Origin: Brevundimonas sp. PAMC22021
GTDB lineage: Bacteria > Pseudomonadota > Alphaproteobacteria > Caulobacterales > Caulobacteraceae
Reading direction: 5' to 3'
Length of the DNA stretch: 64,000 bases
NCBI RefSeq assembly: GCF_019443405.1
Contig: NZ_CP080376.1
Location: 2,666,001 to 2,730,000 of the forward strand
Of the stretch, positions 23,974 through 62,134 are shown piece after piece; position 1 is the stretch's first letter; the number at the start of each line of letters is the position of its first letter. The position numbers were made by a program, and so were the translations under genes. Under the pieces are notes generated by a model. That model ran no database searches. It saw only the letters and a list, made by a program, of their open reading frames with translations, and was not told the DNA's origin.

Positions 23974-24321
23974 TCAGTAGCGGCGCTGGCCGTTGTCCCA
24001 GTAGCATTCGCTCTGGCGGTTATCGTAGCAATAGTAGTACCGGCCGCCGGAGTCGCGGTAACGCTGCTGGTTGGCGCGGTCCTGCGAGGAGCCGCGGATG
24101 GCGCCCGCCGTGCCGCCGATGGCCGCGCCGATGGCCGCGCCGCGGGCGGTGTTGCCGCTGCCGTTTCCGAGCAGGCCGCCGACGACCGCGCCGGCTGCCG
24201 CGCCGATGGCGCCCTGGCGAACCGTTTCATTGGTGCCGTAGCTGTTGCCGCCGTAAGGGTCGCTGGCGCAAGCCGAGGCCAGAAGGCCGGCTCCGGCGAT
24301 CGCGATGATGGCCTTTTTCAT
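23974..24321 (-). CDS. glycine-zipper lipoprotein
   Basis: A 115-residue lipoprotein. AGAGGA precedes the ATG; the signal sequence MKKAIIAIAGAGLLASAC ends in the lipobox LASAC (Cys18). Residues 38-78 form a glycine zipper (GAIGAAAGAVVGGLLGNG and AAIGAAIGGTAGAI). The tail is Tyr/Arg-rich with two Cys near YYYCYDNRQSECYW, perhaps a disulfide. Probably anchored in a membrane facing the periplasm. An exact EcfG-type promoter lies 40-64 bases upstream, so it is likely a general-stress gene. Confidence 0.87.
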   Translation of the reverse strand: MKKAIIAIAGAGLLASACASDPYGGNSYGTNETVRQGAIGAAAGAVVGGLLGNGSGNTARGAAIGAAIGGTAGAIRGSSQDRANQQRYRDSGGRYYYCYDNRQSECYWDNGQRRY

Positions 24322-24360
24322 GGTGTGATCCTCTGCTCTTCCTGTTCGCCCCGAGCCACA

Positions 24361-24385
24361 AACGCCGCAGCCATGCGCCGGTTCC
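24361..24385 (-). promoter_or_regulatory. EcfG-type (general stress) promoter, glycine-zipper lipoprotein gene
   Basis: On the minus strand GGAAC, 16 bases, CGTT: an exact match to the alphaproteobacterial EcfG/SigT consensus. The -10 element ends 39 bases upstream of the ATG. Confidence 0.8.
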
Positions 24386-24415
24386 GCGATAAGGCGAAGC
24401 TTCTTTCGCGAGGCC

Positions 24416-24441
24416 GGAACGCCTGAACGACAAGGCGCGTT
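24416..24441 (+). promoter_or_regulatory. EcfG-type promoter, lipid kinase gene
   Basis: GGAAC, 17 bases, CGTT, an exact consensus match, divergent from the site at 24361-24385. The -10 element ends only eight bases before the ATG at 24450, so the message would start almost at the start codon, or a later start is used. Confidence 0.75.
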
Positions 24442-24449
24442 CGACGGCC

Positions 24450-25403
24450 ATGGACACGCAAATCGCCGACACGCCGGACGCCGCCAAGGGGCCGGCGCCC
24501 TCTTCCTTGAAGGCGCTCAGCCCGCATGCGCCTATGAAGCGCGTGGTGATGCTGGTGAACCCGCTGTCCGGCAGCGTGGGTCCGCGCGCGGCCGCCGAGG
24601 CCGAGGCCATCCTGAAGGAATACGACATCGAGGCGGAGGTGGTGACGCTGGAGGGCGGACAGTTCGACGCCCAGATCGACGCCGCGTTCGCCAGAAAGCC
24701 GGATGTTCTGCTGGTGCTGGCCGGCGACGGCACGGCCCGCTCGGTCGCTTCCAAGGCCAAGCCGGACGGGCCGCTGATCGCGCCCCTGCCGGGCGGCACC
24801 ATGAACATGCTGCCCAAGGCGCTTTACGGCACTGCCGACTGGAAGCAGGCGCTGACCCGCGCGCTGGAGGAGGGCGAACCGCGGCCGGTGTCCGGCGGCG
24901 AGGTGCAGGGCGAGTATTTCTATTGCGCGGCCATCCTCGGCTCGCCCGCTCTGTGGGCGCCCGCGCGCGAGGCGATCCGCACCGGCAAGATTCGATTGGC
25001 GTGGCAGTATGGCAGGCGCGCCTTGAAGCGCGCCTTCTCGGGTCGGCTGCGCTACAGCCTGGACGGGGCGGAGCGGCGGCGCAGCGAGGCGCTGGTGCTG
25101 ATCAGCCCGATGATCTCGCGCGCGATGGACGAGGCGATGGGGCTGGAAGCGGCGGCCATGGACCCGACCGATGCGGCCGAGGCCTTTCGCCTGGCCGCCA
25201 GCGCGGTGTTCAGCGATTGGCGCCAGGACCCGTCCGTATCGACCCAACCGGCGCGGCGCATCGAGGTGCATGCCCGCTCGCGCATCCCCGCCGTAATCGA
25301 CGGCGAGCCCATGCTGCTGAAGCCGGATGCGGTGGTGCGCTTCACGCCCAAGGCGTTTCGGGCGCTGGCGCCCCGTCCGGCGGCGGCGGAGGATTCGGTC
25401 TGA
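24450..25403 (+). CDS. diacylglycerol/sphingosine kinase-family lipid kinase
   Basis: A 317-residue protein. Residues about 30-150 form the DAGK catalytic domain with LVNPLSGS, LAGDGTARSV (the GGDGT-type nucleotide motif) and PLPGGTMNMLPK. The C-terminal beta-sandwich domain is shorter and divergent. The family phosphorylates lipids such as diacylglycerol; the substrate here is unknown. The first 28 residues precede the domain, and Met29 (base 24534) is an alternative start. No ribosome binding site is seen at either. An EcfG-type promoter lies immediately upstream, and a phosphoesterase gene overlaps its stop codon. Confidence 0.88.
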   Translation: MDTQIADTPDAAKGPAPSSLKALSPHAPMKRVVMLVNPLSGSVGPRAAAEAEAILKEYDIEAEVVTLEGGQFDAQIDAAFARKPDVLLVLAGDGTARSVASKAKPDGPLIAPLPGGTMNMLPKALYGTADWKQALTRALEEGEPRPVSGGEVQGEYFYCAAILGSPALWAPAREAIRTGKIRLAWQYGRRALKRAFSGRLRYSLDGAERRRSEALVLISPMISRAMDEAMGLEAAAMDPTDAAEAFRLAASAVFSDWRQDPSVSTQPARRIEVHARSRIPAVIDGEPMLLKPDAVVRFTPKAFRALAPRPAAAEDSV

Positions 25404-26254
25404 TGGGACGCGTGCTGCAGTTCTCGGACGTCCACTTCGGATGCGAGCACAAGAAGGCGGTGGCCGCTGCGCTGGAATACGCCCATGCGACGCCCAGCGA
25501 CCTGGTGCTGATCACCGGCGACATTACCCAGAAGGGCTATCCCGCCGAGTTCAAGGCCGCGGGCGAATGGATGCGGGCCATGCCCGAGCCGCGCTTCGTC
25601 ATCGTCGGCAACCATGACGTGCCCTATTGGGACGCGGTCGCGCGGGTGTTTCACCCGTGGCGCGCGTTCGAGACGGCGACCGGCTTTCCCGCCCATGACG
25701 GCCAGTTCTGCAACGAGACCGTGATGGTGCGCGGCGTGGTCACCGCGCGCGGTTGGCAGGCGCGGCCGAACTGGTCCAAGGGCGTGATCGACCTGGACCA
25801 GACCCGGCGCGCGGCCGAGGCGCTGCGCCAGGCGCCGATCGGGGCGTTGCGCATCCTGGCCTGCCACCACCCGCTGATCGAGATGGTGGGCACGCCCATG
25901 ACCGGCGACGTCAAGCGCGGCGACAAGGCGGCGCTCATCTTCGCCGAGGCCGGGGTGGACCTGATCATGTCGGGCCATGTGCATGTGCCCTTCGCCCTGC
26001 CGATCGACCTGGCGGACCGCTGCTCCTACGCCATCGGCTGCGGGACGCTGTCGCATCGGGAGCGGGGCTCGCCGCCCGGCTTCAACCAGGTGGATTGGGA
26101 CGCCAAGACCATCACCATAACGGCCATGGCCTGGGACGGCGCGCGTTACAGCTCGCACCAGACGTGGCGGCTGCCGCGCCGGCAGGACACCCGCAAGGCC
26201 GCCACGGCGCCGAGCCCGGTGCAGCCTGGCGAACTGGAGAAGGCGGCGACCTGA
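25403..26254 (+). CDS. calcineurin-like metallophosphoesterase
   Basis: A 283-residue protein. The ATG overlaps the lipid kinase stop codon (TGATG), implying translational coupling. All metal-binding motifs are present: FSDVHFG near residue 7, LITGDIT near 37, VGNHD near 67, ACHHPL near 153 and SGHVH near 190. No signal peptide, so it is cytosolic. The substrate is unknown; coupling to a lipid kinase suggests an opposing or sequential step on a phosphorylated compound, which is inference. A strong terminator follows. Confidence 0.92.
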   Translation: MGRVLQFSDVHFGCEHKKAVAAALEYAHATPSDLVLITGDITQKGYPAEFKAAGEWMRAMPEPRFVIVGNHDVPYWDAVARVFHPWRAFETATGFPAHDGQFCNETVMVRGVVTARGWQARPNWSKGVIDLDQTRRAAEALRQAPIGALRILACHHPLIEMVGTPMTGDVKRGDKAALIFAEAGVDLIMSGHVHVPFALPIDLADRCSYAIGCGTLSHRERGSPPGFNQVDWDAKTITITAMAWDGARYSSHQTWRLPRRQDTRKAATAPSPVQPGELEKAAT

Positions 26255-26358: not shown

Positions 26359-26538
26359 CTAGAGCCGCGGCGTGCCGCGTCCGCGAAGTCCGCCCGCGAC
26401 CAGGGCGATCACGAACAGGATGATGGCGATCACGGCGATGAACTTGGCGATCTCGAACGAGAAGTTGGCGATGCCGCCGAAGCCGAGAACAGCCGCAATC
26501 AACGCCACGACCAGGAAAATAATAGCCCAACGCATCAT
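26359..26538 (-). CDS. DUF1328-family small membrane protein
   Basis: A 59-residue protein beginning MMRWAIIFLVVALI, with AGGAAGGA eight bases upstream. Two membrane helices (about 4-24 and 33-51) surround a GFGGIANFSFEIAK turn, the signature of DUF1328 (YtjA-like) proteins. These small inner-membrane proteins are widespread and often stress induced, with unknown function. An exact EcfG-type promoter lies 68-92 bases upstream. It converges on the phosphoesterase gene, sharing the bidirectional terminator. Confidence 0.9.
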   Translation of the reverse strand: MMRWAIIFLVVALIAAVLGFGGIANFSFEIAKFIAVIAIILFVIALVAGGLRGRGTPRL

Positions 26539-26605
26539 GACTGGGGTCCTTCCTGAGAGTTGATACTCGACGGCTTCGGGAGTGTCCTTGGCCTGTCGAG
26601 AAACA

Positions 26606-26630
26606 AACGTCGCCGTGACTTGCGCGTTCC
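26606..26630 (-). promoter_or_regulatory. EcfG-type promoter, DUF1328 gene
   Basis: On the minus strand GGAAC, 16 bases, CGTT, an exact match. It overlaps the short gap after the upstream membrane-protein gene and points at the DUF1328 gene. Confidence 0.8.
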
Positions 26631-26656
26631 GGGGCGAAGGCGAGATTCGACTCGGC

Positions 26657-27061
26657 TCAGCGCCGCCGACGATAGCCGCGCCGCTCCATCTTCCGTTCGG
26701 TCACGAAGCTAGCCACGATGGCGGCGAGCGCCGGGTTGCGCAGCAGCAGGAACAGGGCGCCGAGACCGCCGACCGCGCCGATCATCGGGCGGTCCTTAAT
26801 CAGATGCAGCGCCTTGGCCGCCAGGCCTTCCGGCTCCTCATCCTCGTCGTGGTGATCGCCGGCGTCCTTTTTCAGGAAGACCACGGCCACGACCGCCGCC
26901 AGCGCCGCGAAGACGGCGAACGTCAGCGCCGAGGCGCCGGCGGGCGGCAGGACCAGGAACAGCAGATGATAAACGGTGATCCCCAGAAAGATCACGGCGA
27001 CAAGCGCGGCGGCGGCGACGACCGCCCCCGCCACCACCTTGTTGATGAGGCCCTTCAGCAT
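26657..27061 (-). CDS. small membrane protein, stress-associated (unknown function)
   Basis: A 134-residue protein with two N-terminal hydrophobic helices (about 8-30 and 40-63), an acidic and His-rich loop DHHDEDEEPEG (about 68-78), a third hydrophobic segment (about 92-118) and a very basic end, RKMERRGYRRRR. It resembles holin-like or phage-shock-type small membrane proteins in layout but carries no motif I can name. Its ATG overlaps the stop of the DUF883-like gene by one base (TGATG), so it is coupled to that stress gene and shares its EcfG-type promoter. Confidence 0.8.
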   Translation of the reverse strand: MLKGLINKVVAGAVVAAAALVAVIFLGITVYHLLFLVLPPAGASALTFAVFAALAAVVAVVFLKKDAGDHHDEDEEPEGLAAKALHLIKDRPMIGAVGGLGALFLLLRNPALAAIVASFVTERKMERRGYRRRR

Positions 27062-27402
27062 CAGCGACGACGACCCGACAGCAGCAGGCCGATCACCACG
27101 CCGACGCCCAGCGCGATGGCGGTGGACTGGACCGGGCGCTCCTGCACCCGCTCGGTGATGTAGCGCTGGGCCTCGTCGACGCGTTCTGCGGCGTCGTCAT
27201 AGTACTCGCGACCGCGCACCCGGGCGGTGTCGTAGTAGCCGCGCGCCTGCTGGCGCACTTCATCGGATTTCTCGGCCAGCTTGGCCTGGGCCTGGGCGGC
27301 CTTGTCCTTCAGGCGCTGGGTCTCTTCGCGGGCGCCGGTCTTCAGATCCTCCTTGAGGGTCTTGATGTCCGCCTTGATGTCGTCTTTCGCCTGGGTGGCC
27401 AT
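27061..27402 (-). CDS. DUF883 (ElaB/YqjD)-family membrane-anchored stress protein
   Basis: A 113-residue protein. The start MATQAKDDIKADIK has GGAGCG upstream. Residues 1-90 are a long charged, amphipathic, coiled-coil-like helix (KTLKEDLKTGAREETQRLKD). A C-terminal membrane helix (about 92-110, TAIALGVGVVIGLLLSG) ends in GRRR. This is the ElaB/YqjD layout; in Escherichia coli YqjD is a stationary-phase inner-membrane protein that binds ribosomes. An exact EcfG-type promoter lies 50-74 bases upstream. The next gene overlaps its stop codon. Confidence 0.9.
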   Translation of the reverse strand: MATQAKDDIKADIKTLKEDLKTGAREETQRLKDKAAQAQAKLAEKSDEVRQQARGYYDTARVRGREYYDDAAERVDEAQRYITERVQERPVQSTAIALGVGVVIGLLLSGRRR

Positions 27403-27451
27403 GATGCGCGCTCCGTCTAAGCTTGGCTGTAAATAGGGAACCCCGCTTGCC

Positions 27452-27476
27452 AACGCCAGCAAGGCGCCGCGGTTCC
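27452..27476 (-). promoter_or_regulatory. EcfG-type promoter, DUF883 gene pair
   Basis: On the minus strand GGAAC, 16 bases, CGTT, an exact match. The -10 element ends 49 bases before the DUF883 gene start. Confidence 0.82.
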
Positions 27477-27535
27477 ATGGACGTCCTTCACGCGTCGCCC
27501 TCGTCAGGCGCGCTGACGCGCGATAAACGTCTTTC

Positions 27536-28189
27536 ATGACCGACTGGCTGTTTCCGCCCCGCCCGCAACCGTCCCTGCCCATTGAGGGAGAGGACCGGCG
27601 CTTTCCCGTGCGCCGCATCCTGTGCGTGGGGCAGAACTACGCCGCCCATGCGCGCGAGATGGGATCGAAGCTGGAGGGGCATGTTCCTTTCTTCTTTTCC
27701 AAGCCCGCCGACGCCCTGGTCTCCGATGGAGCCGATCCGGCCTATCCGCAGGCCACGGCCAACCTGCACCACGAGATCGAACTGGTGGCGGCGATCGGCG
27801 AGGGCGGGCGCATCGTCGGCTGGGCCGTGGGCGTAGACCTCACGCGTCGCGACCTCCAGGCCGAGGCCAAGGCGGCGGGACGGCCCTGGGACGCCGCCAA
27901 GGGCTTTGATCAGTCGGCGCCCTGCGGCGCGCTCCGACTGGGCGACCTGCCGGACGCCGATGCAGCCATTACGCTGAGCGTCAACGGCGAGACGCGCCAG
28001 TCGGGTCGCCTTGGCGACATGATCCTGGATCCCGAGGCGGTGCTGGAGGCCGCAGGCGCATTGTGGGCGCTGCAGCCCGGCGATCTGATCTTCACCGGAA
28101 CGCCTGAAGGCGTGGGACCGTTGATCCGGGGTGATCGCGTCGAGGCCGAGATCACGGGGCTGCCGAGCCTTGGTTTCTCCGTGGTCTGA
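27536..28189 (+). CDS. fumarylacetoacetate hydrolase (FAH)-family protein
   Basis: A 217-residue cytosolic enzyme with the FAH core: ILCVGQNYAAHAREMG, the substrate/metal region FFFSKPADALV, HHEIELVAAIG with acidic metal ligands, and DLIFTGTPEGVGPL. The small size and these motifs fit fumarylpyruvate hydrolases or acylpyruvases of the NagK/FAHD1 type, which cleave 2-oxo-acid C-C bonds. The exact substrate is not determined. It is divergent from the DUF883 stress operon and no aromatic-degradation genes are adjacent. Confidence 0.92.
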   Translation: MTDWLFPPRPQPSLPIEGEDRRFPVRRILCVGQNYAAHAREMGSKLEGHVPFFFSKPADALVSDGADPAYPQATANLHHEIELVAAIGEGGRIVGWAVGVDLTRRDLQAEAKAAGRPWDAAKGFDQSAPCGALRLGDLPDADAAITLSVNGETRQSGRLGDMILDPEAVLEAAGALWALQPGDLIFTGTPEGVGPLIRGDRVEAEITGLPSLGFSVV

Positions 28190-60335: not shown

Positions 60336-61022
60336 TCAGCCGCGGAATGGACGGATCAGGATTTCGACCCGTCGGTTCTGGGCCTTGCCCTGCACCGTGT
60401 CGTTGGAGGCCACAGGATTGCGGGCGCTGTTGCCGGCGACGAACAGCCGTTCGGCCAGGACCCCGCGCCGCACCAGTTCGCCCGCCACGCTGGAGGCGCG
60501 ACGTTCAGACAGCGGCTGATTGATCGCATCGCCGCCGGAGGAATCGGTGTGGCCGATGATGTCCACGGTGGACTGATCATACTGCTGCAGCACGCGCGCC
60601 ACGTCGTCCAGGACCGGGGTGAAGCCCGGATCGATCGAATACTGGTTGGTCGCGAAGGTGACGTCCGACGGCATGCGCAGCACCAGATTGTCGCCCTGGC
60701 GAGCGACGCCCACGCCGGTGCCGGACAACTCCGCTTCCAGAGCGCGCTGCTGACGATCCATGTACTGGCCGACCGCCGCCCCGCCCAGGGCGCCGATGCC
60801 CGCGCCGATCAGCGCGTTCTTGCGGCCTTCCTCGCCGCTGTCGGTGTTGGTCAGATAGCCGAGCGCGGCGCCGCCCAGCGCCCCGAGCAGGGCGCCGGTT
60901 CCGGTGTTGTTGCGGCGCGGCGCGGAGCTGTAGGGGTCGGTCGTTGTGCAGGCGGAGGCGCCCAACAGGGCGGCGAGGCTGACGCCGATCACGGCCGTGC
61001 GGGTGGCGAACTTGGCGCGCAT
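60336..61022 (-). CDS. YiaD-like OmpA-family lipoprotein with glycine zipper
   Basis: A 228-residue lipoprotein. The start MRAKFATRTAV has AAGGAA upstream; an upstream frame extension is unlikely. The signal sequence ends at the lipobox GASAC (Cys25). A glycine zipper (about 40-85, GALLGALGGAALGYL and ALIGAGIGALGGAAVGQ) precedes an OmpA-like domain (about 112-228) with VDIIGHTDSSGGDAINQPLS and AQNRRVEILI. The zipper-plus-OmpA layout is that of YiaD. An exact EcfG-type promoter lies just upstream (61059-61084), so stress induction is likely. Confidence 0.93.
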   Translation of the reverse strand: MRAKFATRTAVIGVSLAALLGASACTTTDPYSSAPRRNNTGTGALLGALGGAALGYLTNTDSGEEGRKNALIGAGIGALGGAAVGQYMDRQQRALEAELSGTGVGVARQGDNLVLRMPSDVTFATNQYSIDPGFTPVLDDVARVLQQYDQSTVDIIGHTDSSGGDAINQPLSERRASSVAGELVRRGVLAERLFVAGNSARNPVASNDTVQGKAQNRRVEILIRPFRG

Positions 61023-61058
61023 GGCGACGGTTCCTTCTTGGATGATGAGTGCGCGGGA

Positions 61059-61084
61059 AACGCGAGGCTTACCGTGAAGGTTCC
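61059..61084 (-). promoter_or_regulatory. EcfG-type promoter, YiaD-like gene
   Basis: On the minus strand GGAAC, 17 bases, CGTT: exact. The -10 element ends 36 bases before the ATG, a comfortable leader length. Confidence 0.8.
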
Positions 61085-61180
61085 TGCCTGTACCCGAGAT
61101 GAACAGGATCGCCGCCTGGCCTGACAAGTGGCGGCTTTGCGCGTATGCAGCCGCCAGACGCCGAACAGGGATCAAGAACC

Positions 61181-62134
61181 GTGACCCAGACATCCGCCGC
61201 TTCGGGCATCCAGCCCGTGTCGATGACGCTGTACGACCGCGACTTCCAGCGGTTCTCAGACGAACTGGGCGGCTCGTTCCAGCGGTATGGGTTCGCGGTC
61301 GTGGCCGATCATGGCCTGGACGAGCCGGTGATCGAGGCGGCGATCGATGACGCCAAGGCTTTTTTCGCCCTGCCCGAAGAGGTCAAGCGTCAGTACCACG
61401 TGCCCGGAACCGGCGGCGCGCGGGGGTTGACGCCGTTCGGGGTCGAGGCGGCCAAGGGCGCGGCGGCGGTGGACCTGAAGGAGTTCTGGCACGTCGGGCG
61501 CGAACTGCCGGAAGGACATCCCTATCGCCGCTATATGCGCGACAACCTGTGGCCGACCGAGGTCGAGGGTTTCCGCCAGCACCTGTACGGCATGTTCACG
61601 GCCATGGACGACCTCGGCCGCAAGATCCTGCGCGCCATCGCCCGCTACCTGAAGCTCGGCGACGACTTCTTCGACGACAAGGTCGAGATGGGCAACAGCG
61701 TCCTGCGCATGCTGCACTATCCGCCGGTGCCGGCCGACGCGCCGGGCGTACGCGCCGGCGCGCACGAGGACATCAACGTCATCACCCTGCTGCTGGGCGC
61801 CGAAGAGGCAGGGCTGCAGCTGAAGGAAAGGGACGGCAGCTGGCTGGATATCGCGCCGCCGCCGGGCGCTCTGGTGGTCAACATCGGCGACATGCTGCAG
61901 CGGCTGACCAATCACGTCCTGCCGTCGACGACCCATCGCGTGGTCAATCCTGCAGCCGAGCGGCGCGGCTTTGCGCGTTACTCGACGCCGTTCTTTCTGC
62001 ACTTCAACCCGGATTTCGTGATCGAAAGCCTGCCGTCCGCGGTCACGCCGGACAATCCCGATCGCTACGCCGGGAAGGCGATCACGGCCGAGGACTATCT
62101 GACCGAGCGGCTACGCGAAATCCGGCTGATCTGA
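61181..62134 (+). CDS. isopenicillin N synthase-like 2-oxoglutarate/Fe(II) oxygenase
   Basis: A 317-residue protein. A GTG start is favoured because AGGGA lies nine bases upstream; an ATG at 61145 gives 12 more residues without a ribosome binding site. The N-terminal DIOX_N domain has YGFAVVADHGLD, and the double-stranded beta-helix core carries the iron ligands His-x-Asp in GAHEDINVITLL and the distal His in STTHRVV, with the 2-oxoglutarate Arg in RYSTPFFLHF. No signal peptide, so cytosolic. The substrate is unknown; relatives oxidise diverse small molecules. It is divergent from the YiaD-like gene and converges on the TadG-like gene. Confidence 0.92.
   Translation: MTQTSAASGIQPVSMTLYDRDFQRFSDELGGSFQRYGFAVVADHGLDEPVIEAAIDDAKAFFALPEEVKRQYHVPGTGGARGLTPFGVEAAKGAAAVDLKEFWHVGRELPEGHPYRRYMRDNLWPTEVEGFRQHLYGMFTAMDDLGRKILRAIARYLKLGDDFFDDKVEMGNSVLRMLHYPPVPADAPGVRAGAHEDINVITLLLGAEEAGLQLKERDGSWLDIAPPPGALVVNIGDMLQRLTNHVLPSTTHRVVNPAAERRGFARYSTPFFLHFNPDFVIESLPSAVTPDNPDRYAGKAITAEDYLTERLREIRLI

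Follow-up and report, generated by a model that had tools for sequence, protein, structure and literature searches.

Genes and promoter-like sites in the window

The window analysed here is a 64,000-nucleotide stretch of DNA, positions 2666001-2730000 of the 2.9-Mb, single-contig genome of Brevundimonas sp. PAMC22021. It contains a divergent pair of genes, one for a glycine-zipper protein and one for a lipid kinase of the DAGK_cat type, names that were given in an initial annotation of this DNA and were borne out by Pfam profiles. The same annotation had placed two exact matches to the EcfG-type promoter motif GGAAC-N16/17-CGTT between these genes, in opposite orientations. Both are there, at 24361-24385 on the minus strand with a 16-base spacer and at 24416-24441 on the plus strand with a 17-base spacer; the sites point apart and 30 bases separate their GGAAC boxes. 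The features discussed below are as follows.

23974..24321, minus strand: glycine-zipper gene, encoding a probable lipoprotein of 115 aa (PF13441, PF13488 and PF13436 over cut-off)
24322..24352, minus strand: predicted 31-nt 5' leader of this gene, with a Shine-Dalgarno-like AGAGGA at 24334-24329 and an inferred transcription start at about 24352
24361..24385, minus strand: predicted EcfG-type promoter of the glycine-zipper gene, exact match (GGAAC 24381-24385, CGTT 24361-24364, spacer 16)
24416..24441, plus strand: predicted EcfG-type promoter of the lipid kinase gene, exact match (GGAAC 24416-24420, CGTT 24438-24441, spacer 17)
24450..24452, plus strand: ATG of the kinase, start codon and predicted +1 (24450, to within a base or two), 8 bases after CGTT
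24450..25403, plus strand: lipid kinase (DAGK_cat, PF00781, E 1.6e-13) with a variable N-terminal extension
25403..26254, plus strand: calcineurin-like metallophosphoesterase (PF00149), its ATG overlapping the kinase stop codon
26606..26630, minus strand: predicted EcfG-type promoter, exact match, of a DUF1328 gene (26359-26538, PF07043)
27452..27476, minus strand: predicted EcfG-type promoter, exact match, of a DUF883 gene (27061-27402) that starts 49 bases past CGTT
61059..61084, minus strand: predicted EcfG-type promoter, exact match, of a glycine-zipper/OmpA gene (60336-61022) that starts 36 bases past CGTT

The DUF883 gene also has a longer frame (27061-27618), in which PF19029 was found, and the glycine-zipper/OmpA gene a longer frame (60336-61193) with PF00691 and PF13441. 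A consensus scan of 24250-24650 found neither a sigma-70-type promoter nor an intrinsic terminator. The region 26359-27476, on the opposite strand to the kinase operon, encodes the DUF1328 protein, a small hydrophobic protein without a Pfam match and the DUF883 protein, and with its two further EcfG-type sites it forms a cluster of probable envelope-stress genes. An exact site in the orientation of the one at 26606 was seen near the matching end of 19 of the 30 related loci described below, by eye and not gene by gene.

The GDGT motif of the kinase (G92-D93-G94-T95) was invariant in 10 of 10 aligned sequences, and the PF00781 match was over the cut-off. Distant profile matches were to DgkB/BmrU-type structures; the diacylglycerol kinases of this type share the DAGK catalytic domain with GDGT, but the kinase here reaches no NCBIfam cut-off. 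Every match in the NCBIfam search was far below its cut-off and the PDB search returned distant matches only, and on these results the naming of a substrate was rejected. The metallophosphoesterase gene followed the kinase gene in all 30 loci and is probably co-transcribed with it. That a kinase and a phosphatase under one sigma factor might act in membrane-lipid turnover is a guess from the domain names.

Six exact matches to the motif were found in the window, compared to a mean of 0.66 in dinucleotide-shuffled sequences (largest 3, with none of 100 shuffles reaching six). The initial estimate of about one chance match per 64 kb was right in order of magnitude, and the clear excess that had been claimed over it stands. 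The claim of five exact hits, all upstream of genes, holds for the five that do precede genes (24361-, 24416+, 26606-, 27452- and 61059-) but not for the count, as the sixth match, at 28097-28122 on the plus strand, sits within an FAA-hydrolase gene (27536-28189) and is probably due to chance. When spacings of 12 to 22 bases were scanned in the window, all six matches fell at 16 or 17, two others at 22, and none at any other spacing. The scan of the whole genome that the initial annotation had proposed gave 55 matches, versus 25 for a reversed control pattern; several of the 55, probably chance matches, fall within long open frames. At 1646490-1646516 of the genome contig, exact matches overlap on both strands of a palindrome.

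Conservation of the promoters and start codons

The kinase search covered 61 genomes, of which 51 matched, including 35 of the 37 in the same-genus subset (own genome included). Among the best 30 loci, again counting the window's own, the exact promoter was present in 30, and an in-frame ATG followed CGTT at +8 (27 loci) or +9 (3 loci). Fifteen further same-genus loci had the same geometry, one of them with a 15-base spacer, giving a site with an in-frame start at +8/+9 in 45 of 45 same-genus loci, own included. Two of these were dropped from the detailed count, their kinase motif having been missed by the motif search; the other 43 had ATG at +8 in 39 cases and +9 in four, in frame in all 43. 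The kinase N-terminal extension spans 27 to 56 residues across these 43 loci, yet the ATG stays in frame.

A second set was made up of the best 80 of 336 relatives from a kinase-profile scan of named genomes. By count 66 are Brevundimonas and the others are alphaproteobacterial bins, Caulobacterales bins or similar records, and because many strains are the same as in the 45-locus set the two sets are not independent. All 80 loci contained the exact kinase promoter and an in-frame start at +8/+9 (71 with ATG at +8, five with ATG at +9, and four with GTG at +8), while between offsets 0 and 59 no other position had an ATG in more than six. The 16 bases preceding CGTT made up 71 different strings among the 80 loci. 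In the profile of the 43 loci, CGTT was invariant, GGAAC was strong though blurred by mixed spacers, and most spacer positions were weak. Information reached 0.6-1.0 bits over the five bases before CGTT, and behind CGTT the C scored 1.7 bits and the G 1.4 bits; since the flanks of CGTT carry information, the conserved core is slightly wider than the two boxes.

The codon that would open a leaderless kinase message is ATG in 76 of the 80 loci, as it is in the window, and GTG in four. GUG also serves as a leaderless start codon in some bacteria, and the four GTG loci (L208, L215, L218 and L227), each with an in-frame ATG at +23, may be leaderless with a GUG start or may have moved their start to that ATG. 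GC content by codon position was 0.70/0.61/0.75 in the N-terminal extension and 0.72/0.54/0.86 in the kinase domain, so the extension is only moderately coding-like.

The position of the transcription start was predicted by comparison with Caulobacter crescentus, in which, according to the available text of PMC4287350, the SigT motif lies in the -35 region and one mapped start has a SigT-type motif at -34. If the A of the kinase ATG is taken as +1, the first G of GGAAC falls at -33 (spacer 16, offset 8) or, as in the window, at -34 (spacer 17), and thus the ATG is the expected transcription start. The prediction is good only to a base or two, because the -10 box of that C. crescentus promoter is TGCT rather than CGTT and the counting convention is unstated in the same text (PMC4287350). 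We infer that the kinase mRNA is leaderless, with its +1 on or adjoining the ATG. In a folding comparison of 17 segments over the 80 loci, made without a composition-matched control, the 40 nt that begin at the start codon were the least structured, with a mean of -6.1 kcal/mol versus -8.9 to -15.9 kcal/mol in the other 16. A weak predicted fold at the 5' end of the kinase message is in line with the leaderless mRNAs of C. crescentus, whose start region is described as unstructured in the accessible part of PMC4117421.

The glycine-zipper gene was the divergent neighbour of the kinase gene in all of the best 30 loci, and an exact EcfG site preceded it in 28 of them; in L056 and L060 the site has one altered base in the -10 box. 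Its ATG lay 38-44 bases after CGTT in 27 of the 28 loci with an exact site, and the offset of 36 in L058 was measured to a guessed start and not to an ATG. These leaders bear Shine-Dalgarno-like AGAGGA or AAGGA runs (by eye), and the start of the leader in the window, at about 24352, was predicted from the single C. crescentus SigT-type motif position in the available text of PMC4287350. A recurring GGGGCGAAC element is found in the lipoprotein leaders of many relatives, for example at 24322-24360 in the window. With a Shine-Dalgarno-like leader on one side and a predicted +1 at the kinase ATG on the other, a single intergenic region would serve both a Shine-Dalgarno-led and a leaderless EcfG gene.

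The two promoters had been described as back-to-back, which is true in the window but does not describe a conserved unit. Among the 80 loci the distance between the two GGAAC boxes was less than 100 bases in 24, 100-350 in two and 350-700 in 45, while nine had no exact divergent site; across the 71 loci with such a site it ranged from 30 to 512 bases. The promoters were adjacent in 10 of the best 30 loci and had a longer gap between them in 20. Inspection by eye of the 20 long-gap loci showed, in 19 of them, a related small open frame that reads toward the kinase, spans about 90-120 residues and contains a hydrophobic stretch (L037-L040, L044, L045, L047-L049, L051 and L053-L061); the frame from L051 had no Pfam match. 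L041 has a 230-base gap without the small frame. The small gene is absent from the window, and the promoters are therefore adjacent there. A conserved back-to-back unit was rejected, as the gaps vary and, in the long-gap loci that were looked at, the small gene lies between the sites.

Other genes with the same geometry and the assignment to EcfG

Throughout the 61 genomes of the genus scan, an ATG followed the motif at +2 to +32 in 1503 places, versus 173 for the reversed control, ATGs being counted whether or not they begin a gene. There were 385 such ATGs at +8/+9 (20 in the reversed control), 33 at +5/+6 and 34 at +12/+13, or about 6.3 sites per genome at +8/+9 versus 0.5-0.6 at either of the other offset pairs, making the +8/+9 arrangement over tenfold commoner. 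In the window's own genome, 8 of the 55 matches had an ATG at +8 to +10. Four of the eight belong to the kinase and to MgtC-family, PAP2-family and YihY/BrkB-like genes; the other four open shorter frames (53, 72, 111 and 116 residues), and the one of 111 residues may well not be a gene.

The PAP2-family phosphatase gene had an exact site and an ATG at +8 to +10 in all 22 genus loci, an arrangement absent from three loci from other families. The YihY/BrkB-like gene had it in 19 of the 23 genus loci; in three more (L149, L152 and L155) the match runs up to the edge of a contig, leaving no upstream DNA, and in L154 the frame is broken, a site and an ATG at +8 lying just upstream of it. One of two YihY loci from other families (L156) had the exact site with ATG at +8. 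In L135 and L172 there is an in-frame GTG even closer to CGTT. For the MgtC-family gene, 17 of the 25 fetched loci were examined, the remainder being second copies or from other families, and the exact site was found in 8 of the 17, all eight with an ATG at +8/+9.

In the wider family, 94 of 119 genomes had a kinase match, and 36 of the 77 matching genomes from outside the genus were compared. Eleven of the 36 loci, from seven genera (g13, g17, g19, g20, g21, g23 and g27), had the exact site with an ATG at +8/+9. In five more (L099, L101, L105, L108 and L109; two of g29 and three of g31), found by allowing one mismatch and without a control, GCAAC took the place of GGAAC, with ATG at +8 in four and GTG at +9 in one; the accessible text of PMC7083833 gives GCAAC as one of the two most frequent EcfG -35 boxes in Sphingopyxis granuli. 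Ten loci had an exact site at another offset, in one case with ATG at +5, and in ten, one g29 locus included, no kinase site was found. Four loci from other families had a site with GTG at +8 in one, with ATG at +26 in one, and no site in two. From this comparison EcfG control of the kinase looks old; the leaderless form looks widespread in the family but not universal, because in ten loci no site was found and ten have it at another offset.

Under stress, PhyR releases EcfG from NepR. In the window's own genome two exact matches form a divergent pair (2540463- / 2540529+), and the nepR gene (PF18557, E 1.4e-15) starts immediately downstream of it. The flanking genes code for a sigma factor of the ECF type and for a PhyR-type protein that combines a sigma-like with a receiver domain. 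Of 25 same-genus ecfG loci, 24 have an exact divergent pair upstream (L303 shows none), with a near-constant distance between its sites, and the presence of the same pair in 24 of 25 loci makes the assignment of the motif to EcfG well founded. Other exact matches in the genome precede genes for a catalase-family protein, a short-chain dehydrogenase, a glucose/sorbosone dehydrogenase and a glycine-zipper-like protein (below its Pfam cut-off); catalase, dehydrogenase and glycine-zipper genes are typical of stress regulons. The boxes thus occur at a spacing of 16-17 above chance, EcfG, NepR and PhyR are encoded with the motif upstream, and the site is kept while its spacer sequence varies (kinase, 80 of 80 loci; lipoprotein, 28 of 30). 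The initial reading of the sites before the kinase and lipoprotein genes as EcfG promoters is supported, at the level of sequence, by the excess of matches, the motif pair at phyR/nepR-ecfG and the boxes conserved before both genes.

Interpretation and comparison with known systems

The data are best accounted for by two independent EcfG promoters, one of them leaderless and belonging to a conserved leaderless group within the stress regulon. The probability of this reading is put at roughly 0.8; the analysis shows the motifs, the synteny, the constant offset, the open frames and a weak computed fold at the 5' end, with EcfG dependence, the +1, the route of translation and the physiology all predicted. 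Under stress PhyR would free EcfG from NepR, components that the genome encodes and whose activation here is presumed. Leftward, EcfG polymerase would transcribe the glycine-zipper envelope protein gene behind an ordinary leader, about 31 nt long, that carries a Shine-Dalgarno-like site. Rightward, it would produce a kinase and metallophosphoesterase transcript starting on the A of the kinase ATG, and 70S ribosomes would initiate at the 5' AUG of this leaderless message. There is no clear Shine-Dalgarno sequence before the kinase, so read-through RNA would be poorly translated and kinase output would be tied to the stress start. The same geometry would serve the PAP2-family phosphatase, the YihY/BrkB-like membrane protein and, in some species, the MgtC-family protein.

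The start sites used by ECF sigma factors differ by a few bases, and it is conceivable, though unlikely, that the EcfG promoter of the kinase is real but the message has a short leader, with its +1 a few bases before the ATG or with translation from a downstream start codon such as the ATG at +92. Downstream in-frame starts in many kinase loci, the ATG at +23 in the four of 80 loci with GTG at +8, and the moderate codon bias of the N-terminal extension would all fit such a leader. However, every one of the 80 loci has an in-frame start at +8/+9 and no other ATG offset occurs in more than six; this argues for a start at that position, as does the same +8/+9 peak in the unrelated PAP2 and YihY genes and in the genus-wide counts; in the window, no clear Shine-Dalgarno sequence was seen by eye just before the ATG at +92.

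That the two promoters act as one bidirectional unit, through coupled polymerases or a shared regulator, is very improbable given gaps of 30 to 512 bases in 71 of the 80 loci and the small gene in the long gaps looked at, although the EcfG sites and the synteny of both genes in nearly all 30 loci would be expected of such a unit, and phyR/nepR-ecfG has the same layout at a near-constant distance. Least credible of all is that the matches arose by chance or belong to a different ECF sigma factor whose motif is similar. About 25 chance matches are expected per genome, the sixth match in the window probably being one, and the 3-16 EcfG-protein matches per same-genus genome searched indicate that other ECF sigma factors exist; but the boxes are conserved while the spacers vary, and the identical motif pair at phyR/nepR-ecfG marks the motif as that of EcfG. 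A chance origin of the two sites was rejected on the shuffles, the reversed-pattern control and the conservation.

Beyond the preferred reading of two independent promoters lies a broader and more doubtful proposal, that the Brevundimonas stress response has a hard-wired leaderless arm, with the EcfG promoter locked 8-10 bases from the start codon at about six sites per genome, through which stress transcription might feed 70S initiation. Among these sites might be those of the lipid kinase, the PAP2-family phosphatase, the YihY-like protein and sometimes MgtC. If true, it would favour membrane-lipid genes when ordinary initiation is limited under stress. The role of leaderless mRNAs in stress adaptation is unsettled, and a single stress sigma factor whose orthologous target genes would be leaderless or Shine-Dalgarno-led, two of them in one intergenic region, makes a direct test possible. 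The fixed promoter-to-ATG distance also allows leaderless genes to be found, and start codons to be corrected, from sequence alone.

No paper joining EcfG to leaderless mRNAs, and none on the EcfG regulon and diacylglycerol kinase, was found in the literature searched, which left most subscription journals outside its reach. The link is unstated in the available portions of PMC3616915, PMC4117421, PMC4287350, PMC3073932, PMC7083833, PMC5869019, PMC4842269 and PMC9320726. A figure in PMC3616915, as far as its accessible text describes it, breaks down sigma-E2 promoters by class of transcript start, the leaderless class among them, and may contain cases; published start-site tables may likewise contain EcfG-leaderless cases. 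The accessible part of PMC4842269 states that the literature holds no specific promoters for leaderless genes. In normal growth the leaderless mRNAs of C. crescentus are translated about as well as others, according to the available text of PMC4117421, which contrasts this species with stress-linked leaderless mechanisms proposed in other bacteria.

The boxes and spacing found here are those of the EcfG/SigT promoters (GGAAC-N16-CGTT) of alphaproteobacteria in the accessible text of PMC4287350 and PMC7083833, and the divergent phyR / nepR-sigma layout is common to Brevundimonas and the known systems described in that of PMC3073932. What distinguishes a subset of Brevundimonas promoters is a start codon fixed 8-9 bases after CGTT, which is undescribed in the available text of these three papers. 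Leaderless mRNAs number 375 in C. crescentus, where they are initiated by 70S ribosomes (PMC4117421), and 171 in Sinorhizobium meliloti (PMC3616915), as given in the accessible parts of the two papers. They have AUG at the 5' end, as predicted here; those sets are genome-wide, whereas the present one would depend on one alternative sigma factor with a conserved promoter-to-ATG geometry. In Bradyrhizobium japonicum, as here, a promoter motif is tied to leaderless starts, but that motif, in the available text of PMC4842269, is an extended -10 element, TGnTA, and RpoD-like, while the one here is of the EcfG type. In alphaproteobacteria both EcfG promoters and leaderless mRNAs were known already; it is their proposed combination for which the literature searched gave no precedent.
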